A stretch of 53,147 nt of DNA from an uncultured SAR86 cluster bacterium. Lineage in GTDB: Bacteria; Pseudomonadota; Gammaproteobacteria; Magnimaribacterales; D2472. The stretch spans positions 1 through 53,147 of the forward strand of contig CACOEZ010000003.1 in the NCBI GenBank assembly GCA_902626385.1. Reading direction: 5' to 3'. The translations under genes were made by a program, and so were the position numbers. The number at the start of each line of letters is the position of its first letter. Position 1 is the first letter of the stretch. Below, piece by piece: positions 19,581-53,147 of this stretch. The notes beneath the pieces were generated by a model. The model was not told the origin of the DNA, did not search any database, and was given only the letters and a program-made list of their open reading frames with translations.

Positions 19581-19926
19581 TGGTGGAGGCGGCGGGAATT
19601 GAACCCGCGTCCGCTAATCCTTCAGCCTAACTTCTACATGCTTAGCTCATTCTATTATTTTTGACTTTCAAGGCCCGAAGAGCAGGGTTTGAAAGCGAGC
19701 TTGATTAAGTTTAACCAAACTGTATCCAAGCAATACAGCCTGGCTAGACTATGTGTTTATCCGATGCTTCAAACCATAGTCAATTTTTGCATCGGTTAGC
19801 ATTAAGCTGCTAAAGCGTAGTTGTCGTTATTTGCAACTATTTTTTTATAGTATGTTTTACAAGAGTTACTACAATCTTGGCATGCGCTTTGGAGTCCAGT
19901 AGAAACGTCGAACCCTATTCGCCCCC
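19581..19926 (-). ncRNA. ssrA: Transfer-messenger RNA (tmRNA)
   Basis: tmRNA rescues stalled ribosomes together with SmpB. The 5' end GGGGGCG pairs with CGCCTCC before the 3' terminal ACCA, giving a seven-base acceptor stem with a G3-U wobble, the alanine identity element. The 5' side has GGGTTCGACG and the 3' side the T arm GGTTCAATTCCCGCC. The tag reading frame (19802-19834) follows an ATAGTTGCAAATAA-type resume site and encodes ANNDNYALAA, then TAA. The length is 346 bases. smpB lies directly upstream on the same strand, as in E. coli. Confidence 0.96.
19802..19834 (-). other. ssrA: tmRNA tag-peptide reading frame (ANNDNYALAA)
   Basis: The resume codon GCA at 19832-19834 begins a ten-codon frame encoding ANNDNYALAA and ending with TAA at 19802-19804. 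The LAA end is the ClpXP degron, and the first residues resemble the SspB-binding half of the enteric tag ANDENYALAA. Confidence 0.93.
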
Positions 19927-44700: not shown

Positions 44701-45186
44701 ATTAAGGATAGAAAAGGGAAGCCACTCACGTTTGTTAATTTCGATGATGGTACTGGAGTAATGGATGGAATAATATCAAGTGAAGTTTTAGAAAATTGCC
44801 ACGTTTTCCTTAAAGAGGGGTCAATTTTATGCTTAAAAGGCTCTATTGAAGTTGATGATTATAGAACTAATGATATTGGTGCATTAATGTTTAGAATGCG
44901 CGTGAAAGAGGTAAGCACAATAGATAACGAACTTAAAAGAAAAATAAGCAGTATTGAAATCGATGTCAGTAAGTCAGATTTATTATCTTTAGAAAATTTT
45001 GGCGACAAGTTAGAACTTATTGATTCAGAATTTTGGTCTGATGGATCTTGTAGAATTAATCTTAAAGTTCAATCAAATAATTCAGAAGCTATAATAGAAC
45101 TTGGAGATGAGTATAAATTTGTTCCAAATATTGAAAACTTATTTTATTTAGAGGATTTGTTTGGAAAGGACACATTAAAAGTTTAA
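41752..45186 (+). CDS. dnaE: DNA polymerase III alpha subunit
   Basis: This is the replicative polymerase (1144 residues, E. coli 1160). The PHP domain is at the N-terminus (FSHLRVSSEYSISQGL). The catalytic core has GPGRGSGAGSLVAFALGIT near residue 350, the metal-binding PDFDVDFCMEKR near 395 and FDFLGLRTLTVI near 545, and the tandem HhH region follows. The OB-fold (LVCLINSVRQIKDRKGKP) lies in the C-terminal quarter. No intein or frameshift is visible. Confidence 0.98.
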   Translation: MSLFSHLRVSSEYSISQGLLTVNQIVENAVKKSIPSVAMTDRANMFGLVKFFDKCEASGIKPISGCSLNVVFKDDDESYELLCLAKSNKGHKNLMKIISSAHNNISFTSPIIKFEELVELKDDIVVISGGKGSHVFELLRRNNILDTNKKIDQFTKYFKDDFVLEIQRTNRTDESDYIEKVIPISIEKSIPIIATNDVLFSSSEDYEIHETKVCINTGKTLNDPNREKKFSDQQYFKSAEEMTNLFKEAISFIENTNEISKKCNVSLKTKGYFLPEYPVPKEHDFDSYLTDLSHQRLKQYLENFNIEKKAEYVKRLDYELEQIKTMGFSSYFLIVYDFIQWSKNNDVPVGPGRGSGAGSLVAFALGITTLDPIIHGLLFERFLNPERLSMPDFDVDFCMEKRDLVIDYVSNKYGSGAVSQIATFGTMAARAVVRDVARAMGKPYALGDRISKMIPFAPGMTLDKAKIEQPIFAQTIKNDSEVREIVDLSYKLEGIARNVGKHAGGVVIAPGSISDFCPVYVDRQSSSVMTQYDKDDVEKIGLVKFDFLGLRTLTVIDRAVKSINLDKDEAKKFDIESIPLNDDKVFKLLSSGKTMAVFQLESSGMRDLIKRLKPTKFEEITALLALYRPGPLNSGMHDEFVDRKHGDSPVTYPHELLEEVLEETYGVIVYQEQVMEAARVLAGFSLGQADILRRAMGKKKKEEMEEQREIFVKGCVKNNIKEKNAEQIFDLINQFAEYGFNKSHSAAYALISYQTAYLKAYYPEHFMASVMSSELGNTDKIYALTQECVRMGIKVLKPNIVSSSKRFLVNDKNEIEYGLGAIKGVADTFIKHVCESRKNRKFRDLWDFSKKVDIKLGGKKSLEALSQSGAFDSLSPSRSIAIACVEDMLKDGSLQNGENLKSGDLFADFDESFDPYEKYKNIQNLTLSEKLELEKKSLGYYMSGHPVIAIENKVSRIRANKISDLTNDIKRSSLVCLINSVRQIKDRKGKPLTFVNFDDGTGVMDGIISSEVLENCHVFLKEGSILCLKGSIEVDDYRTNDIGALMFRMRVKEVSTIDNELKRKISSIEIDVSKSDLLSLENFGDKLELIDSEFWSDGSCRINLKVQSNNSEAIIELGDEYKFVPNIENLFYLEDLFGKDTLKV

Positions 45187-45218
45187 TTTTAGTGAGTTTT
45201 TACAATAATGGTAATTAA

Positions 45219-46166
45219 ATGGATGAAGAAAAATTTTTAAATTTTGAGGAGCCAATAAAGGAACTTGCTCAAAAGCTGAGTGCACTGAGAACAGCTGCCG
45301 TAGATTCACCAGCTCTGAATGAAGAGATCCTAAGTTTAGAAAAAGAGAATAAGGCACTTACAAAGAAAATATATTCTAAATTAGATACGTGGCAAATTGT
45401 TCAAGTAGCAAGACACCCAAACAGACCTCATACTTCTGATTTTATCGAAAGAATATTTGATGACTTTGATGAATTGCATGGTGATAGACAATTTGGAGAT
45501 GATGCATCAATAATTGGTGGAATTGGCATGCTAGAAAATATGCCCGTGATGGCAATTGGTCATGAAAAAGGAAGAGATACTGACGAAAAAGTAAAAAGAA
45601 ATTTTGGAATGACAAATCCTGAGGGATATAGGAAAGCAAAAAGATTAATGTTGCTTGCTGAACAATTTTCTCTACCTGTAATAACTTTTGTCGATACAGC
45701 AGGTGCTTACCCGGGAGTTGAAGGTGAGGAGAGATGTCAAAGTGAAGCCATAGCAAGAAATTTGGCAACAATGTCCGAGCTTAAAACACCGATAATAGTA
45801 GTTGTGACTGGAGAGGGTGGTTCTGGCGGAGCTTTAGCAATAAGTGTAGGTGATCATCTTTCGATGCTCGAGTATGCTATATATTCTGTTGCTTCTCCGG
45901 AGGCATGTGCATCTATTATTTGGCGATCTTCTGAAAAGGCTCCAGATGCAGCTGAAGCAATGAAAGTGTCTTCGAATGAGCTAAAAAAAATAAAAATCGT
46001 AGATGAAGTTATACAAGAACCTCTCGGAGGAGCTCATAGAGACTATGATCTAATTTCTCAAAATATTAAAGGATCTCTTATTAGAAATTTATCAATATTA
46101 AACAAGCTTTCGATTGAAGATTTGCTTGATAGACGATATCAAAGAATTTTGAGCGTTGGCGCATAA
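45219..46166 (+). CDS. accA: Acetyl-CoA carboxylase carboxyltransferase subunit alpha
   Basis: AccA (315 residues, near the E. coli 319) forms the carboxyltransferase with AccD and makes malonyl-CoA. Motifs are WQIVQVARHPNRPHTSDFI, GDRQFGDDASIIGGI, TFVDTAGAYPGVEGEERCQSEAIA and GEGGSGGALAI. It lies directly downstream of dnaE, as in E. coli. Its end overlaps the tilS start by 11 bases. Confidence 0.97.
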   Translation: MDEEKFLNFEEPIKELAQKLSALRTAAVDSPALNEEILSLEKENKALTKKIYSKLDTWQIVQVARHPNRPHTSDFIERIFDDFDELHGDRQFGDDASIIGGIGMLENMPVMAIGHEKGRDTDEKVKRNFGMTNPEGYRKAKRLMLLAEQFSLPVITFVDTAGAYPGVEGEERCQSEAIARNLATMSELKTPIIVVVTGEGGSGGALAISVGDHLSMLEYAIYSVASPEACASIIWRSSEKAPDAAEAMKVSSNELKKIKIVDEVIQEPLGGAHRDYDLISQNIKGSLIRNLSILNKLSIEDLLDRRYQRILSVGA

Positions 46167-47139
46167 ATTGTTATCAATAGAAGATTTAAAACAGAAAATA
46201 GACTTCACGAAGAAGATTTTTGTTGGTTTTAGTGGTGGTTCAGATTCATCAGCATTACTTCATGTGCTTGCAAAAACAGCTTTTAAATATAAGCTTGATT
46301 TGAATGCAATTCATATCAACCATAAACTTTCTAAAAATTGCGATGACTGGGAAGAACATTGCAGAAATATGTGTAATAACTTGAATGTAAATTTAATAAC
46401 TGAGACAGTGAAAATAGAATCATCTGGAGGTGGTACCGAAGCAGCAGCAAGAAAAGCAAGATATAAAATTTTTGAAAAATATATCGATATAAATGATCAG
46501 CTGCTAACCGCTCATCACTCAGATGACATAACAGAAACAATTTTCTTGAGATTGATGAGAGGCACTGGCCTTGAGGGTCTTCAAGGTTTGTCAGTTTCAA
46601 GAAAGTTTGGTAAAGGCTTCATAATAAGACCTTTATTAGAATGTTCTAAAAAAGACATTATTAAATATGTTGAAGATAATAAAATTCAACATATATGTGA
46701 TGAGTCTAATGACAATAATTTAATTGATAGAAACTTTTTAAGAAACGAAATATTTCCAATGCTTGATAAAAGATGGAATGATTTTTCTTTACGAATTTCA
46801 AAAACATCGAAGATCATTTCAAATAGAAATAAAAATTTCTCTAAATTGCTTAAAAAAAATTATAAAGATTTAATTTCAGATTCAATCGAAAAAAAAGCAT
46901 TATCTGATTTAGATAATGAAATTATCAAAGAAATCTTAAGACATGTCATTAAAGATAAAGGCATAGCTATGCCAAGTTCAAAAGTGCTTGATGAAGTTTT
47001 AAAAACTTTTATTAATTCAAATCCATCACAAAAATCAATTGTCACTTGGTCAAGAGCTGACAAAGAAGACCAACCAGGTAAAATAACTTACAAAGATGGA
47101 AAAATTTTGATTTCTGCAAACAAAACAAAGGAGAAATAA
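46156..47139 (+). CDS. tilS: tRNA(Ile)-lysidine synthase
   Basis: TilS converts C34 of the AUA-reading tRNA-Ile to lysidine. The N-type ATP pyrophosphatase loop SGGSDSSALLH lies near residue 24, followed by AIHINHKLS and the THHSDDITETIFLRLMRGTGLEGL-like region. The protein has 327 residues against 432 in E. coli, so the C-terminal TilS substrate domains are reduced. Two TTG starts (46156, 46168) are possible; the first overlaps accA. The stop overlaps the next gene (TAATG). Confidence 0.93.
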   Translation: MAHKLLSIEDLKQKIDFTKKIFVGFSGGSDSSALLHVLAKTAFKYKLDLNAIHINHKLSKNCDDWEEHCRNMCNNLNVNLITETVKIESSGGGTEAAARKARYKIFEKYIDINDQLLTAHHSDDITETIFLRLMRGTGLEGLQGLSVSRKFGKGFIIRPLLECSKKDIIKYVEDNKIQHICDESNDNNLIDRNFLRNEIFPMLDKRWNDFSLRISKTSKIISNRNKNFSKLLKKNYKDLISDSIEKKALSDLDNEIIKEILRHVIKDKGIAMPSSKVLDEVLKTFINSNPSQKSIVTWSRADKEDQPGKITYKDGKILISANKTKEK

Positions 47140-47912
47140 TGAATCTGAAAACTATCGAAATAATTAATCAGGAAAAAGTTTCAACTATTAAATTAAATAG
47201 GCCCGACTTGTTAAACGCTGTAAATGAACAACTTGTTTGGGATCTTCAAAAGGCTACTGAACAGGTAATGAATGATGAAAAAATAAAGGTTGTTATTTTG
47301 ACTGGGGCTGGCAGAGGTTTTTCAGCTGGAGCAGATTTGAGTGAAAGAAAAGCAAGCTGGGAAGGTTCAAAAGATGCATTGTTAAGAGGATATAAACCAT
47401 CTTTTGAAAATATAATTACTATGCCAAAGCCTGTAATTGCTTCTGTATCAGGTCCTGCTGCTGGCATTGGAGCAGCCTTAGCTATGTCATGTGACTTAAG
47501 GGTTATGTCTGAAGATTCTTATTTATTATCTGTTTTTAGTAATATTGCTTTAGTCCCAGATGGAGGCCTTTCATGGTTTTTACCAAAGTTTATGGGTTAT
47601 GCAAAAGCTTATGAATATGCTGTGGAAGCAAAAAAAATATCTGCATCAGATTGTTTGAAGTATGGTATTGCAAACAAATTGGTTCCTGCAGATAAAATTG
47701 AAGAGACAACGCTTGAATGGGCAAATAAGTTATCAAAAAGATCTTCACAGTCTTTGAATCATACAAAACGACTTATGCGTGAGTCATTGGCAGTAGGTTA
47801 TTGGGATACCTTTAATAATGAAGCTGAAATTCAAAATGAACTTACTGTAAGTCCACAAAATCGTGAGGCTGTAAAAGCATTTTTAGAGAAAAGAGAACCA
47901 AATTTTGATTAA
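47139..47912 (+). CDS. Enoyl-CoA hydratase/isomerase family protein (crotonase fold)
   Basis: This second crotonase (257 residues) is paralogous to the one at 10155-11030. The oxyanion-hole segments are GRGFSAGADLSERK (58-71) and SGPAAGIGAALAMSCDLRV (104-122). The later acid position reads ALVPDGGLSWFLPK with Asp141, as in PaaG-type isomerases, and there is no clear hydratase glutamate pair. Function is probably on a CoA thioester; the substrate is unknown. The one-base overlap with tilS puts it at the end of the long plus-strand run, far from other beta-oxidation genes. Confidence 0.87.
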   Translation: MNLKTIEIINQEKVSTIKLNRPDLLNAVNEQLVWDLQKATEQVMNDEKIKVVILTGAGRGFSAGADLSERKASWEGSKDALLRGYKPSFENIITMPKPVIASVSGPAAGIGAALAMSCDLRVMSEDSYLLSVFSNIALVPDGGLSWFLPKFMGYAKAYEYAVEAKKISASDCLKYGIANKLVPADKIEETTLEWANKLSKRSSQSLNHTKRLMRESLAVGYWDTFNNEAEIQNELTVSPQNREAVKAFLEKREPNFD

Positions 47913-47914
47913 AG

Positions 47915-49567
47915 CTAAAGGAGTTTGCTTAAACCGACAATGATGGCATCAAAAGATGCTCTTGTGGTATTGGGATTAATACCAACGCCCCAAAAAGTTT
48001 TACCATCTTTTTCTAATTCAATATATGCAGCAGCTTTAGCATCTGATCCAGATGAAATAGCTGTTTGATGATAATCTGCAACTTTTATTTGCATACCAAT
48101 TTTTTCAGACAGACCGTTAATAAAAGAATCAATTGGCCCATTCCCCGAACCTTTAATTAATGTCTCAGAATTTTGCATGTTCATTGTTAATTCCAAGGTA
48201 TGAATTTCATCTTTTGAAGATGATTCATGTTTTATGTAGGAAAAATTATTTTTCGGTGATAAATAACTTTCCTCAAAAATCTCCCATATTTGCGAACTAG
48301 AAATTTCTTTTCCAGTTTCGTCAGCTAATTTTTGAATTTTTTGACTTAGGCTAATCTGTAATCTTCTTGGCAGAGAGACTCCATGATCTTTCTCTAATAG
48401 AAATGCAACTCCGCCTTTTCCTGACTGAGAGTTAATTCTAACAACGGCTTCATAGTTTCTTCCTAGATCAGCAGGATCTATTGGTAAATATGGAACCTCC
48501 CACTTGGGATCGTTTGAATTTTTAATAGCATTAAAACCTTTTTTTATCGCATCTTGATGAGATCCAGAGAATGCTGTGAATACCAAATCTCCAGCATATG
48601 GATGCCTCGGATGAACAGGTAATTGATTACAATACTCAACTTCTCTCATTACAGAATTGATATTTGAGAAGTCTAATTTAGGATCAATTCCTTGTGTAAG
48701 CATATTCAATGCAATTGTTACAACATCTACATTCCCTGTTCTTTCGCCATTACCAAATAATGTACCCTCTACTCTGTCAGCTCCTGCCATTAAACCAAAT
48801 TCAGATGCAGCTACTGCAGTACCTCGATCATTGTGAGGATGAAGACTAAGACAAATATCATTTCTATTTTTAAGATTTTTATTCATCCACTCAATTTGAT
48901 CACCATAGATATTTGGAGTTGACATTTCGACAGTTGCAGGGAGATTAATGATAATTTTATTTTTAGACACCGATTTGAGAATATCTACAACTGCGTCACA
49001 CACGTCTCTAGCATAATCAAGCTCAGTGCCTGTAAAACTTTCTGGTGAATATTCAAAAGTCCATTCAGTTGAACTATTTTCTTCTGCAAGATTTTTTATT
49101 AGCTGCGCGGCATCAGTAGCAATTTTTTTTACTCCGTTTTTATCCTGATTAAAAACAACTTTTCTTTGAAGGGTAGAGGTTGAATTGTAAAAATGAACTA
49201 TAGCTTTTGAGGAACCTTTTAGTGACTCAAATGTCTTTTTAATTAAATCCTCTCTTGCTTGGGTGAGAACTTGGATTTTGACGTCACTCGGTATTTTTTT
49301 ATTCTCTATAAGATCTCGAACAAAATCATAATCTGTTTGCGAAGCAGAGGGAAAACCAACTTCAATTTCTTTGAAGCCTATATTACATAGCAAGTCAAAC
49401 ATTCTATTTTTTCGTTCAGCTCCCATAGGTTCAATTAATGCTTGATTTCCATCTCGCAAATCAACTGAACACCATATAGGGGCATTCTTAATAGTTTTTT
49501 CAGGCCATTTTCGATTTTCTAAGTCAATTGGCTTAAATGCTGAATATTTGTTCGTAGGATTGTCCAT
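47915..49567 (-). CDS. leuA: 2-Isopropylmalate synthase (LeuA type 2)
   Basis: LeuA (550 residues) condenses acetyl-CoA with 2-oxoisovalerate, the first leucine step. The N-terminal extension ending APIWCSVDLRDGNQALIEPM is typical of the long type found in Pseudomonas and Actinobacteria. The TIM barrel has the metal site LSLHPHNDRGTAVAASE. The C-terminal regulatory domain (after about residue 420) includes KGSGNGPIDSFINGL and would bind leucine. It is divergent from holD with only 22 bases between starts. Confidence 0.96.
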   Translation of the reverse strand: MDNPTNKYSAFKPIDLENRKWPEKTIKNAPIWCSVDLRDGNQALIEPMGAERKNRMFDLLCNIGFKEIEVGFPSASQTDYDFVRDLIENKKIPSDVKIQVLTQAREDLIKKTFESLKGSSKAIVHFYNSTSTLQRKVVFNQDKNGVKKIATDAAQLIKNLAEENSSTEWTFEYSPESFTGTELDYARDVCDAVVDILKSVSKNKIIINLPATVEMSTPNIYGDQIEWMNKNLKNRNDICLSLHPHNDRGTAVAASEFGLMAGADRVEGTLFGNGERTGNVDVVTIALNMLTQGIDPKLDFSNINSVMREVEYCNQLPVHPRHPYAGDLVFTAFSGSHQDAIKKGFNAIKNSNDPKWEVPYLPIDPADLGRNYEAVVRINSQSGKGGVAFLLEKDHGVSLPRRLQISLSQKIQKLADETGKEISSSQIWEIFEESYLSPKNNFSYIKHESSSKDEIHTLELTMNMQNSETLIKGSGNGPIDSFINGLSEKIGMQIKVADYHQTAISSGSDAKAAAYIELEKDGKTFWGVGINPNTTRASFDAIIVGLSKLL

Positions 49568-49589
49568 GCTTTAATAAGTAAATGATATT

Positions 49590-50039
49590 ATGTATCTTAT
49601 GCTTACTCCGGAAATAAAAACTAACCTTATATTAAAAGAGATTGGAATTAAAAGATATTCATTAAGGCCTAAGAAAACAGATATTTCAAAAAAAACATAC
49701 AATTCTTTTCAAAAAGGTGCCATTCTCGCAATTTTAGATAAACCTTTTGATAATTTTATAAAAGAACAACAGGATCTTTTAAAAGCTGTTCTTGCTTCAA
49801 CTAAACTCGATAAAGATAAAGAGTGCACGGAGGGTCTTACTTTCACATCACCTGATGAATTAAAAAAGAAGTTATCTAATTTTAATGAAATTAAACTTAT
49901 TATTATTTTTGGGAAGATCTGGAGCAATCTAAATTTTGACTGTTTAGTAATAAACTCCCCATCTCTTAGTGAATTAGCTCTCAAGAAAGAAGCAAAAGCT
50001 AAGCTTTGGACTGAAATAAAAAATAAATTAAATTTATAG
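49590..50039 (+). CDS. holD: Putative DNA polymerase III psi subunit (HolD-like)
   Basis: This 149-residue protein would normally be called hypothetical. Two blocks resemble E. coli HolD. Near the N-terminus, LKEIGIKRYSLRPKK parallels LQQLGITQWSLRRPG. Near the C-terminus, VINSPSLSELALKKEAKAKLW parallels QVASPALTDLRANPTARAALW. The gene is six bases upstream of rimI, the same holD-rimI adjacency as in E. coli. Psi links the clamp loader to chi and SSB. The middle of the protein is not conserved. ATG 49599 is an alternative start. Confidence 0.75.
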   Translation: MYLMLTPEIKTNLILKEIGIKRYSLRPKKTDISKKTYNSFQKGAILAILDKPFDNFIKEQQDLLKAVLASTKLDKDKECTEGLTFTSPDELKKKLSNFNEIKLIIIFGKIWSNLNFDCLVINSPSLSELALKKEAKAKLWTEIKNKLNL

Positions 50040-50045
50040 AAATTA

Positions 50046-50486
50046 ATGTTTAAGATTTCACTAACAGATTCTTCTGAATTAGAAAAGCTATATGAGATTG
50101 AAAAAAATACAAATCCATCACCATGGTCGAAAAAAAACTTTTATTCATCTTTTGAAGTTGGACATAAATCACTTGTTTGTAAGAAAGATAAAAAAATTAT
50201 TGGATTTATAATTTTTTCTATTGTTAACAGAGAATGTCATCTTTTAAGTATCGCAGTAGTAAGGAAATTTCAAAGATCTGGTGCCGGCACTATTTTGATA
50301 GAATCAATGATAAGGCAATCAAAAGTGCTTGGAGCAAAGAAAATATTTTTAGAGGTAAGGTCTAAAAACAAAAAAGCAATCAGCTTTTATAAAAAATTTA
50401 ATTTTGAAACAGATGCTATTCGAGCAAATTACTATACGGGCAAAACACCTGATGATGCAATATTGATGAGCCTCAATATCGGCTAA
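50046..50486 (+). CDS. rimI: Ribosomal protein alanine N-acetyltransferase RimI
   Basis: This is a GNAT-fold acetyltransferase of 146 residues. PSPWSKKNFYSSF near the N-terminus, the acetyl-CoA loop VVRKFQRSGAGTILIESMI (V-R-x-x-Q-R-x-G-x-G type) and YKKFNFETDAIRANYYTG at the C-terminus match RimI, which acetylates S18. holD lies immediately upstream. The stop overlaps the opposing gpx stop within CTAA. Confidence 0.9.
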   Translation: MFKISLTDSSELEKLYEIEKNTNPSPWSKKNFYSSFEVGHKSLVCKKDKKIIGFIIFSIVNRECHLLSIAVVRKFQRSGAGTILIESMIRQSKVLGAKKIFLEVRSKNKKAISFYKKFNFETDAIRANYYTGKTPDDAILMSLNIG

Positions 50487-50962
50487 AGTAATTTTATTAT
50501 TTCAGGCTCGATTTCGCTTACTTCACTTTGTGGACTAAATCTCTCTTTCACCTCACCATTTTTATTAATTAGAAATTTAGTAAAATTCCATTTTATTTGT
50601 TTTGTTCCCGCAACTCCTGGGATTTTATTTTTTAGAAACTTGTAAAAAGGATCAGCATTAGAACCATTAACTTTAACTTTATTAAATATTTTAAAAGTCA
50701 CACCATATTCTGAATCACAAAATTTTTGTATTTCTTCATTAGTACCAGGTTCTTGAAGGGCAAATTGATTGCATGGGAATGCCAAGATATCAAAACCATC
50801 TTTTGTGTATTTTTTATATAATTTTTCTAGTCCTTTATATTGATATGTAAGTCCACAATAACTTGCTACATTCACTACAAGAAGAACCCTCCCTTTATAA
50901 ACGCTTAAAGATACTTCATTTAATAAAGCATCTTTGACAGAGAAATCATAAATTGTTTTCAT
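50483..50962 (-). CDS. Glutathione peroxidase-family thiol peroxidase (Cys type)
   Basis: This 159-residue GPx-fold peroxidase has the tetrad Cys36 (VASYCGLT), Gln70 (FALQEPG), Trp125 and Asn126 (KWNFTKF). It has cysteine in place of selenocysteine. A second cysteine in FPCNQF (Cys64) is conserved, and the resolving-cysteine position could make it thioredoxin-dependent, so glutathione use is not certain. ATG 50962 is chosen; an in-frame TTG at 50983 would add seven unconserved residues. It is divergent from elaA across about 80 bases. Confidence 0.92.
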   Translation of the reverse strand: MKTIYDFSVKDALLNEVSLSVYKGRVLLVVNVASYCGLTYQYKGLEKLYKKYTKDGFDILAFPCNQFALQEPGTNEEIQKFCDSEYGVTFKIFNKVKVNGSNADPFYKFLKNKIPGVAGTKQIKWNFTKFLINKNGEVKERFSPQSEVSEIEPEIIKLL

Positions 50963-51042
50963 AAAATTTAGACATGTGTGCAAGAATTTCGAATATTATA
51001 TATGTATTCAAAATTAAACGACACAATGAGTATGATCTAAAA

Positions 51043-51504
51043 ATGAACTTTAAAATTGAATATTCTTGGAAAAACTTCAAAGATTTATCTTTGGACGATC
51101 TATATGCTATTTTGAACTTAAGACAAGAAGTCTTTGTTCTAGAGCAAAATTGTCCATACATAGATGCGGATTACTCAGATCAAGATGCAATTCATCTTTT
51201 GGGATATTGTAAAGATGAACTTATCTCATATTTGAGGGCATTTCCGCCAAATATAAAATATGAAGGCTCATCCATGGGAAGGATCGTAGTTAAAGAATCA
51301 ATGAGAAAAAAAGCTATTGGCAAGGAAATAACTAAAATCGGCGCATCTTTTCTTAAAAAAAAGTATCCAAATTATGAAATTGTAATTTCAGCCCAGCACA
51401 GACTTGAGAAGTTTTATGAGGATCTTGGCTTTATTTCCAGAGGTGGAGTTTACTTAGAAGATAACATCGATCATATTCAGATGTATTTACCAGTTACTCA
51501 ATAA
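51043..51504 (+). CDS. elaA: ElaA-type GNAT N-acetyltransferase
   Basis: This 153-residue GNAT protein closely resembles E. coli ElaA. LYAILNLRQEVFVLEQNCPYIDAD near residue 20, IGRVVV-like GRIVVKESMRKKAIGKEI near 85-105 and FYEDLGFISRGGVYLEDNIDHIQM at the C-terminus correspond block by block. The substrate is not established. ATG 51043 is chosen by homology; an upstream in-frame ATG at 50974 would add 23 residues with no family match. The end overlaps the valS end by 11 bases. Confidence 0.88.
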   Translation: MNFKIEYSWKNFKDLSLDDLYAILNLRQEVFVLEQNCPYIDADYSDQDAIHLLGYCKDELISYLRAFPPNIKYEGSSMGRIVVKESMRKKAIGKEITKIGASFLKKKYPNYEIVISAQHRLEKFYEDLGFISRGGVYLEDNIDHIQMYLPVTQ

Positions 51505-53147
51505 TAGATTCTTTGAATAACAAATCACTAATTTCTTCTGTCAAAAATGGAGCAAATGGATGCAAAACGTGAAGTATCTCTTTTAAAAGTGGTCTTAAAT
51601 TTTTTGTTTCACCTGATTTTTTACACTTTTCAATATACACATCACAGAACTTATTCCAAAAAAATTCGTAAATTTCATTAACTGCAAAATCTAATCTGTA
51701 GTCGTTAATATTTTTTTCTATTTGCTTCTTTGTCTTAATGAATTCTTCAAAAATCCACTTGTCATCATCATTTTGAGCTTTAAACGATTCACTTTCGCTT
51801 GGGTAACCCTCAATAAATCTAGCTGCATTCCATACCTTATTACAAAAGTTTCGGTATCCCTTCAAACGGCCAAACTCAAAGCTTATATCTTTTGTATGAG
51901 TAGCCATTGAGAAAAATGACATTCTCAAAGCATCCGTTCCATATGATTCAATACCTTTTGGAAATTGATTTCTAGTTTTTTTCTCAATTTTTTGAGCAAT
52001 ACTTTCTTGCATTAAGTTTGAAGTTCTTTTTTGGACAAGTTCATCTTGAGTGATTCCATAAACTAAATCTAAAGGATCAATAATATTACCTTTCGATTTT
52101 GACATTTTTTGTCCATTTTCATCTCTTATCAAACCAGTAACATATACATCTTTGAAAGGTATTTGATTTGTAAATTCAAGACTCATCATCATCATTCTTG
52201 CAACCCAAAAAAATATTATGTCAAAACCAGTTACAAGTAATGATGTTGGAAAGTGTTTTTTAAAATCGATTGTTTCTTCAGGCCAGCCCAAAGAAGAAAA
52301 TGGCCATAAGCTTGAAGAGAACCATGTGTCCAAAACATCTTCATCTTGAGTCAGCTCTCTATCATCAAGTTTGTAATATTCTCTAACTTCAGATTCATCT
52401 TTACCAACATAAACATTTTTTTCTTCGTCATACCATGCGGGAATTCTATGGCCCCACCAAATTTGTCTACTTATGCACCAATCTTCAATGTTATTCATCC
52501 AATTAAAATATGTTTTTATCCAATTATCTGGATGAAATTTAATATCACCTTTTTTAACAGCTTCATTTGCTTTTTTTGCCATTTCAGCTGTTTTCACATA
52601 CCACTGATGGCTAAGCTTCGGTTCAATTACAATATTTGATCTTTCACCTCTCGGGATACTTACATTATGCTTTTCTTCCTTTTCAAGAAGATCTAGTTCT
52701 TTTAAATTTTCTAGAACCAATTTTCTTACTTTAAATCTATCAAGGTTTCTAAAAGGTTCCGGAACATTATCATTTGTCCATGCATCTTCATTAAATATAT
52801 TTATGGGTTCAAACTTACTCAAGTCATCTGATACAAATACCTTTCCATTGATTTCATGCAACGAATGCTTTTTACCTATCTCATAATCATTAAAGTCATG
52901 CCCAGGAGTAATCTTTAAGCAACCTGTTCCAAACGCCATATCTACGTATTCTTCTGCGATGATTGGAATTTTTCTTCCAACAAATGGAAGAATTGCATTT
53001 TTCCCAATAATTTCATTGTATCTTCTGTCATCAGGATTAACTGCGATGGCCATATCTCCAAACATTGTCTCTGGTCTTGTAGTTGCAACTATTAAGTGAT
53101 TTTCACTGTCTTCAATTTGATATTTAATGTGCCACAAAAATCCTTCT
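51494..53147 (-). CDS. valS: Valyl-tRNA synthetase (5' partial; short C-terminus)
   Basis: About 550 codons are visible and the N-terminal part lies beyond the window edge. The visible frame opens in the CP1 editing domain (ATTRPETMFGDMAIAVNP) and continues with NIEDWCISRQIWWGHRIPAWY, the KMSKSKGN motif and the helical anticodon-binding domain (FAVNEIYEFFWNKFCDVYIEKCK). It stops right after HPFAPFLTEEISDLLFKESIIE. E. coli ValS (951 residues) continues for roughly 180 more, including the coiled-coil tRNA-binding tail. No continuation was seen in other frames downstream, and the gene end is buried in elaA. Confidence 0.95.
   Translation of the reverse strand, partial: EGFLWHIKYQIEDSENHLIVATTRPETMFGDMAIAVNPDDRRYNEIIGKNAILPFVGRKIPIIAEEYVDMAFGTGCLKITPGHDFNDYEIGKKHSLHEINGKVFVSDDLSKFEPINIFNEDAWTNDNVPEPFRNLDRFKVRKLVLENLKELDLLEKEEKHNVSIPRGERSNIVIEPKLSHQWYVKTAEMAKKANEAVKKGDIKFHPDNWIKTYFNWMNNIEDWCISRQIWWGHRIPAWYDEEKNVYVGKDESEVREYYKLDDRELTQDEDVLDTWFSSSLWPFSSLGWPEETIDFKKHFPTSLLVTGFDIIFFWVARMMMMSLEFTNQIPFKDVYVTGLIRDENGQKMSKSKGNIIDPLDLVYGITQDELVQKRTSNLMQESIAQKIEKKTRNQFPKGIESYGTDALRMSFFSMATHTKDISFEFGRLKGYRNFCNKVWNAARFIEGYPSESESFKAQNDDDKWIFEEFIKTKKQIEKNINDYRLDFAVNEIYEFFWNKFCDVYIEKCKKSGETKNLRPLLKEILHVLHPFAPFLTEEISDLLFKESIIE

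Follow-up and report, generated by a model that had tools for sequence, protein, structure and literature searches.

The closest described system for the enzyme examined here is the valyl-tRNA synthetase (ValRS) of Thermus thermophilus (PDB 1gax), which shares with it the catalytic core, the editing domain and an anticodon domain built as a helix bundle. The coiled-coil arm of the Thermus enzyme packs on the tRNA elbow, and the D-loop of the tRNA carries G18, G19 and base 20. The coiled coil reportedly contacts the G19-C56 pair as well as base 20; without it, KM is said to rise and kcat to fall strongly, so loss of the arm should carry a cost. Passages of PMC4810234 place ValRS among the few synthetases that touch the tRNA elbow, and passages of PMC9976931 give G20 and G45 as minor valine identity elements, while the portion of PMC7373986 that we drew on contains nothing on the ValRS arm. 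We found no report of a natural ValRS without the C-terminal arm in the open-licence literature searched, and the same literature yielded nothing that joins SAR86 with valyl- or aminoacyl-tRNA synthetases.

The window analyzed here, a 53,147-nucleotide stretch of DNA from an uncultured SAR86 cluster bacterium, ends within a valS gene (Table 1). The frame is open from position 53146 at the window edge to its stop codon, and its C-terminal sequence is HPFAPFLTEEISDLLFKESIIE. NCBIfam matches of the translated frame end at position 683 of 860 (NF004349) and 700 of 863 (TIGR00422). The Pfam Anticodon_1 match is likewise incomplete, covering 93 of 148 positions in the window and 91 of 148 in the short relative L060, and neither protein matches the coiled-coil arm family PF10458, which is present in the full-length SAR86 ValRS L137 at 1.1e-12. 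From the HPF.PFITEE motif to the C-terminus, 11 full-length SAR86 ValRS have 194-201 residues. We also superposed the model of a short relative, L056, on residues 3-701 of 1gax (Z 39.1, rmsd 2.9 Å, 678 residues aligned). Since the superposition ends at residue 701 of 862, the short SAR86 enzyme has nothing to match the last 161 Thermus residues (702-862), which comprise the end of the anticodon profile, the junction and the arm. This confirms that valS in the window stops before the anticodon-domain profile is complete and encodes neither the junction nor the coiled coil, as the original prediction of an early stop had it.

That prediction had also placed elaA on the opposite strand at the end of valS, and the neighbor is indeed an ElaA-type GNAT gene, matched by NF007644 at E 5.8e-30 with 104 bits, a score below the curated cut-off of 171. 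An Rfam scan of positions 45000-53147 at gathering score returned no RNA element at the end of valS. Elsewhere in the window, a tmRNA gene with the tag ANNDNYALAA lies on the minus strand at 19581-19926.

Table 1. Coordinates of the valS region in the window and of the tRNA-Val(GAC) genes of genus g1 (the latter in the coordinates of their own records).
Feature	Position	Strand	Remark
valS, C-terminal 550 codons and stop	51494..53147	-	Gene runs on past the window edge; 741-codon frame in G000:C3
End of the anticodon-binding helix bundle	51494..51760	-	Frame closes ahead of the expected junction and coiled-coil arm
valS stop codon	51494-51496	-	Within the 11 bp by which valS and the convergent GNAT gene overlap tail to tail
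ElaA-type GNAT acetyltransferase	50974..51504	+	Convergent neighbor of valS
tRNA-Val(GAC), g1	L342 8114-8190		
tRNA-Val(GAC), g1	L344 10087-10163		
tRNA-Val(GAC), g1	L346 9978-10054		
tRNA-Val(GAC), g1	L349 6830-6906		

By every core feature tested, the protein is a class Ia valyl-tRNA synthetase without the usual arm. The PF10458 arm is a common but not a defining trait of ValRS, and we likewise do not count a complete Anticodon_1 profile among the defining ones. The whole protein from the window genome (G000) scores 906.7 bits against TIGR00422, with a curated cut-off of 612.1. Among 50 aligned ValRS headed by L056, HMGH is nearly invariant and KMSK invariant; KMSKS can be read in the window frame, and the HIGH region of this gene falls outside the window. 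The editing (CP1) domain, residues 2-160 of the window fragment, superposes on Thermus 1wk9 with Z 23.7 and an rmsd of 1.1 Å over 142 residues. AlphaFold models the whole L056 protein with a mean pLDDT of 90.6 and a pTM of 0.84, including a closed anticodon-binding helix bundle, and the window fragment with a pLDDT of 85.0 and a pTM of 0.60, its low-confidence stretches lying in the cut catalytic part. Between the window genome and G025, dN/dS is 0.013/0.170 = 0.08 across valS and 0.010/0.278 = 0.04 over its last 80 codons; the gene is under strong purifying selection up to its very end. The short ValRS would be expected to charge tRNA-Val efficiently. In the same genome, IleRS still has a near-complete anticodon-domain profile and its zinc finger, and LeuRS its anticodon domain.

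We next consider how ValRS varies across the order. An order-wide search covered 203 genomes, 182 of which had a match, and 150 rows among the matches listed were counted by eye; about 32 matching genomes lie beyond this listing, and their ValRS length enters here only where another search gives it. The short end is common to 78 of these 150 and is therefore not a matter of chance or assembly error; 68 rows are full length, and four pieces (G104, G012, G145 and G146) have no resolved end. Within this listing, 76 short frames are whole at 739-754 codons and two more (G007, G103) are cut at the front only, the 68 long frames span 859-952 codons, and no frame lies between the two ranges. Short forms occur in family f1 (62 rows; genera g1, g2, g3, g12, g13, g15 and g17, and one g16 species, G139) and in family f4 (16 rows), and full-length forms in families f2 and f3 and in the f1 genera g14, g16 and g18. 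Each of the one-contig genomes G034, G041, G044 and G139 has a single ValRS match. In a pattern scan of named genomes, taking the best 80 of 590 relatives, the short end is seen in L056-L061 and L063. L062 and L082 have cut sequences, and all remaining rows, starting with L064, continue for at least 119 residues past the match.

Aligning the C-terminal boundary in close relatives, as had been proposed, showed that proteins 68-96% identical to the window ValRS stop at the same place, and the short forms share an internal deletion after IEKCK. The full-length SAR86 enzymes form a separate gene lineage, 48-57% identical to the short one. They resemble it in their locus near pepA and in the order of the common domains, but differ in having 911-952 codons as a rule, the PF10458 arm where scanned (L137) and an 8-nt D-loop in tRNA-Val(UAC). 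As a separate observation, a 4.2-kb contig in a Flavobacteriaceae MAG (L059, CAJVZM010000096.1) carries a SAR86-type short valS and is probably misbinned. The short end is conserved among these relatives, under purifying selection and confidently modeled, and the idea of a natural minimal ValRS without a tail is supported.

At the level of the class, we surveyed 136 gammaproteobacterial genomes, of which 133 matched (G221, G295 and G328 had no match). Frames shorter than 913 codons occur in six rows, those of G000, G290, G250, G253, G248 and G038. The G290 contig ends inside the gene, and in G250, G253, G248 and G038 the match starts within the first 60 bases of the contig, which means that the front is cut; G038, an f4 genome, has the short C-terminus besides its cut front. 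A survey of 150 genomes across the phylum, with G405, G434, G445 and G448 left out of the length count, gave four rows below 850 codons besides G000. Here the G439 gene is cut by a contig end, and G425, G386 and G442 (in two pieces) all match the ValRS profile through to its last part. By frame length, then, the 136 class and 150 phylum genomes hold no other natural ValRS closing near the same point except that of G038, and every other frame with a resolved end is full length. Even genomes of 0.3-0.4 Mb still have a long frame (955 codons in G217, 948 in G336).

The history of the short gene can be read from the ValRS and rpoB trees. In a ValRS tree built on tail-free columns (63 of 85 rows used), the short forms are a single clade with support 100 and a long stem of 0.78. 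The rpoB tree places f4 next to f1, at the end of a long branch, and G139 next to the long-ValRS species of its own genus. Between G044 (f4) and G015 (f1), valS is 74% identical, rpoB 64% and five neighbor genes 25-49%. G139 and its sister G138 share 53% identity in valS and 85% in rpoB, while G139 and G015 share 71% and 79%, respectively. The pepA gene adjoins valS or sits one small gene away in the 23 loci compared, and G139 and G138 have the same pepA-valS locus. Judged from these sequence comparisons, the identities and the shared locus show horizontal movement of the short valS between f1 and f4, in either direction, and clearly point to displacement of a full-length valS in place in one species, G139. 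In-place displacement is probable in f4 as well, and a single loss of the arm, from a ValRS of SAR86 type, is the most likely origin.

The small gene between pepA and valS differs between families. In f2 it is holC (DNA polymerase III chi; PF04364 in G039), as seen at 6419-6859 of L164 in comparison with L169. Family f3 shows the same holC gene cluster as f2, f1 loci have no holC there, and f4 has at this position a frame of about 133 amino acids with no Pfam match in G044.

To look for the missing part elsewhere in the genome, we built a profile of it from 16 rows and searched 27 genomes, 18 with short ValRS (among them the one-contig genomes G034, G041, G044 and G139) and 9 long-ValRS controls. 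All nine controls matched at E 2.7e-30 or lower, inside valS only; G123, G040, G037 and G039 had supplied profile rows and the other five had not. At E up to 10, 16 of the 18 short-ValRS genomes stayed without a profile match; the remaining two gave unconvincing partial matches of 12-14 bits (E 0.028 and 0.085). A PF10458 search of the window genome for a stand-alone C-terminal domain returned nothing above cut-off. The gene downstream of valS encodes a GNAT protein in G000, AstB in G139, a hydrolase in G015 and a short-chain dehydrogenase in G044. Because these downstream genes differ between lineages and the profile results are unconvincing, we rejected readthrough or frameshifting into a tail across the genus.

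Several other readings of the short gene were weighed against this evidence. The window genome is a draft, 72% complete, which could suggest an assembly error, a frameshift or a decaying pseudogene whose true protein is full length. However, the end is shared by the 78 listed rows, one-contig genomes included, and is found in the complete genome CP097973.1 (L060); strong purifying selection acts right up to it, the genes beyond it vary between lineages, and no close relative was seen to have a frameshift with a full-length C-terminus, so that the relatives refute this reading and we give it practically no weight. Truncation on separate occasions, by convergence in f1, in f4 and in G139, would explain why all lineages compared have valS at the same chromosomal locus, as vertical descent predicts. 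This is very improbable given the single, fully supported clade, the common deletion after IEKCK, and the 68-76% identity of f1 and f4 short ValRS, as opposed to 53% between short and long forms within one genus (G139 and G138). Split arrangements exist for other synthetases, and here too the missing C-terminus might in principle work in trans, as might a tRNA-binding protein of unrelated origin, the latter outside the reach of homology searches. The original prediction had offered such a replacement as an alternative. It fares poorly here, since the lost-part profile found all nine controls and nothing convincing in any of the 18 short-ValRS genomes, PF10458 is absent above cut-off from the window genome, and the downstream neighbors vary among short lineages. 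We regard a split enzyme as improbable, though less so than convergence.

The tRNA partner differs as well. We read tRNA-Val(UAC) in full from 57 genomes. The D-loop has 9 nt in all 29 short-ValRS genomes, with the sequence AGTTTGGTA in f1 (19 genomes) and AGTTGGTTA in f4 (10, including G038 with its front-cut valS), and 8 nt in all 28 from long-ValRS groups, as AGTTGGGA in f1 (14) and AATTGGTA in f2 and f3 (14). The extra U precedes G18-G19 in f1 and follows them in f4. A pattern search of 107 f1 genomes found the gene in 86, 60 with 9 nt and 26 with 8 nt. Leaving aside 18 genomes without a resolved ValRS end, f1 contains 51 short ValRS with 9 nt, 17 long ValRS with 8 nt and no mixed case. 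Adding f4 (10) and f2/f3 (13 resolved; G168 unresolved), the loop is 9 nt in 61 of 61 short-ValRS and 8 nt in 30 of 30 long-ValRS genomes. On the rpoB tree this amounts to only three independent switches. All three point the same way, which makes the correlation perfect yet formally weak (p 0.25 by a sign test).

In the class sample, the tRNA-Val(UAC) pattern matched 122 of 136 genomes. Besides G000 and G038, one of the remaining 120 has 9 nt (G313), five have 7 nt and the rest have 8 nt, counted by eye. The G313 genome, gammaproteobacterial and 1.1 Mb in size, encodes a ValRS of 914 codons; no other genome of the 120 shows this pairing with a 9-nt UAC loop. The tRNA-Val(GAC) D-loop measures 9-11 nt in short- and long-ValRS genomes alike; this and G313 mean that a larger loop does not require the short enzyme. 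U20 is part of the f1 change, but U20 alone was rejected as the correlated base, as f2 and f3 carry it with a long ValRS.

Other features of these tRNAs were noted in passing. The f4 tRNA-Val(UAC), for example in L316 and L317, has the acceptor stem GCGAGTT, compared with GGGYGAY in the other SAR86 genes read, and looks as if it had been swapped for another tRNA. A tRNA-Val(GAC) seemed at first to be missing from genus g1, but ARAGORN finds the gene in G000, G011, G015 and G030; our pattern missed it because it excluded C33. In all four genomes this tRNA has C33 in place of the near-universal U33. Its acceptor stem, GGGCGAG, is unlike that of sister genera, and its orientation is opposite to tRNA-Val(UAC), unlike in G034.

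The tRNA-Val(UAC) gene of G139 lies about 580 kb away from valS in record coordinates. Its flanks are colinear with those of G138 (73.8% over 2.6 kb), and its D-loop is of the short type. The tRNA is one base off that of G100 and has a 53-nt stretch, from the D-arm to the T-arm, identical to that of G096.

Our preferred reading, which we consider probable as a whole, is that a functional minimal ValRS is encoded here, its arm lost once and its gene later passed among SAR86 families, and that the lost elbow contact is accommodated by the D-loop of tRNA-Val(UAC). The enzyme would consist of the catalytic core, the editing domain and a closed anticodon-binding helix bundle, with the alpha/beta junction and the coiled-coil arm missing. 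The single loss would have struck a ValRS of SAR86 type. The short gene subsequently moved between families and displaced full-length valS at the same site, clearly in G139 and probably in f4. Recognition of the anticodon and the acceptor end would stay with the retained domains, and the lost contact would be offset on the tRNA side by the growth of the UAC loop from 8 to 9 nt. The 9-nt loop was reached by different sequence routes in f1 and f4, the f4 tRNA having another acceptor stem, with the result that no tRNA-Val read from short-ValRS genomes has fewer than 9 nt in its D-loop.

The main competitor holds that the D-loop change is neutral, its length being free to drift once the arm is gone, and that the correlation stems from a small number of events and from common ancestry or the joint transfer of enzyme and tRNA. 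The small number of switches and the G313 pairing of a 9-nt loop with a long enzyme speak for drift, and the near-identity of the G139 tRNA to that of G100, with the stretch shared with G096, is compatible with gene conversion. Drift predicts mixed lengths, however, and every resolved short-ValRS genome has exactly 9 nt in UAC; f1 and f4 arrived there by different sequences; and the tRNA-Ala(UGC) loop stays at 8 nt in 13 of 13 genes compared, five of them from short-ValRS genomes. We view drift as less likely than not. Because the D-loop differs with the state of the arm, and by different routes in the two families, co-evolution is the best explanation, and we infer that the change compensates for the lost arm. 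Between a loop that compensates and one that is merely permitted, compensation has somewhat the better chance. More tentatively, armless ValRS and tRNA-Val(UAC) may form one two-locus unit, in which uptake of the enzyme forces the D-loop change because the short enzyme would handle an 8-nt loop poorly. If so, D-loop size would be a valine identity determinant that the coiled-coil arm normally makes irrelevant. Displacement of full-length valS would then hint at a selective advantage, such as escape from an agent that targets the arm; phage T4 Vs acts on ValRS.

Compared with the coiled-coil deletion of the Thermus enzyme, the short SAR86 ValRS likewise has no coiled coil. The Thermus deletion, however, is laboratory-made and reportedly impaired, with its tRNA unchanged, while the SAR86 form is natural, has also lost the junction and is accompanied by a changed D-loop. 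A free-living ocean clade thus manages without an arm whose removal in the laboratory is said to cripple the enzyme. SAR86 are abundant ocean bacteria, and their armless lineages show a slightly larger elbow loop in one valine tRNA. With an armless clade, a matching change at the tRNA elbow and horizontal replacement, nature supplies pairs of enzyme and tRNA in which the parts in question differ, and the purpose of the arm is therefore directly testable with them.
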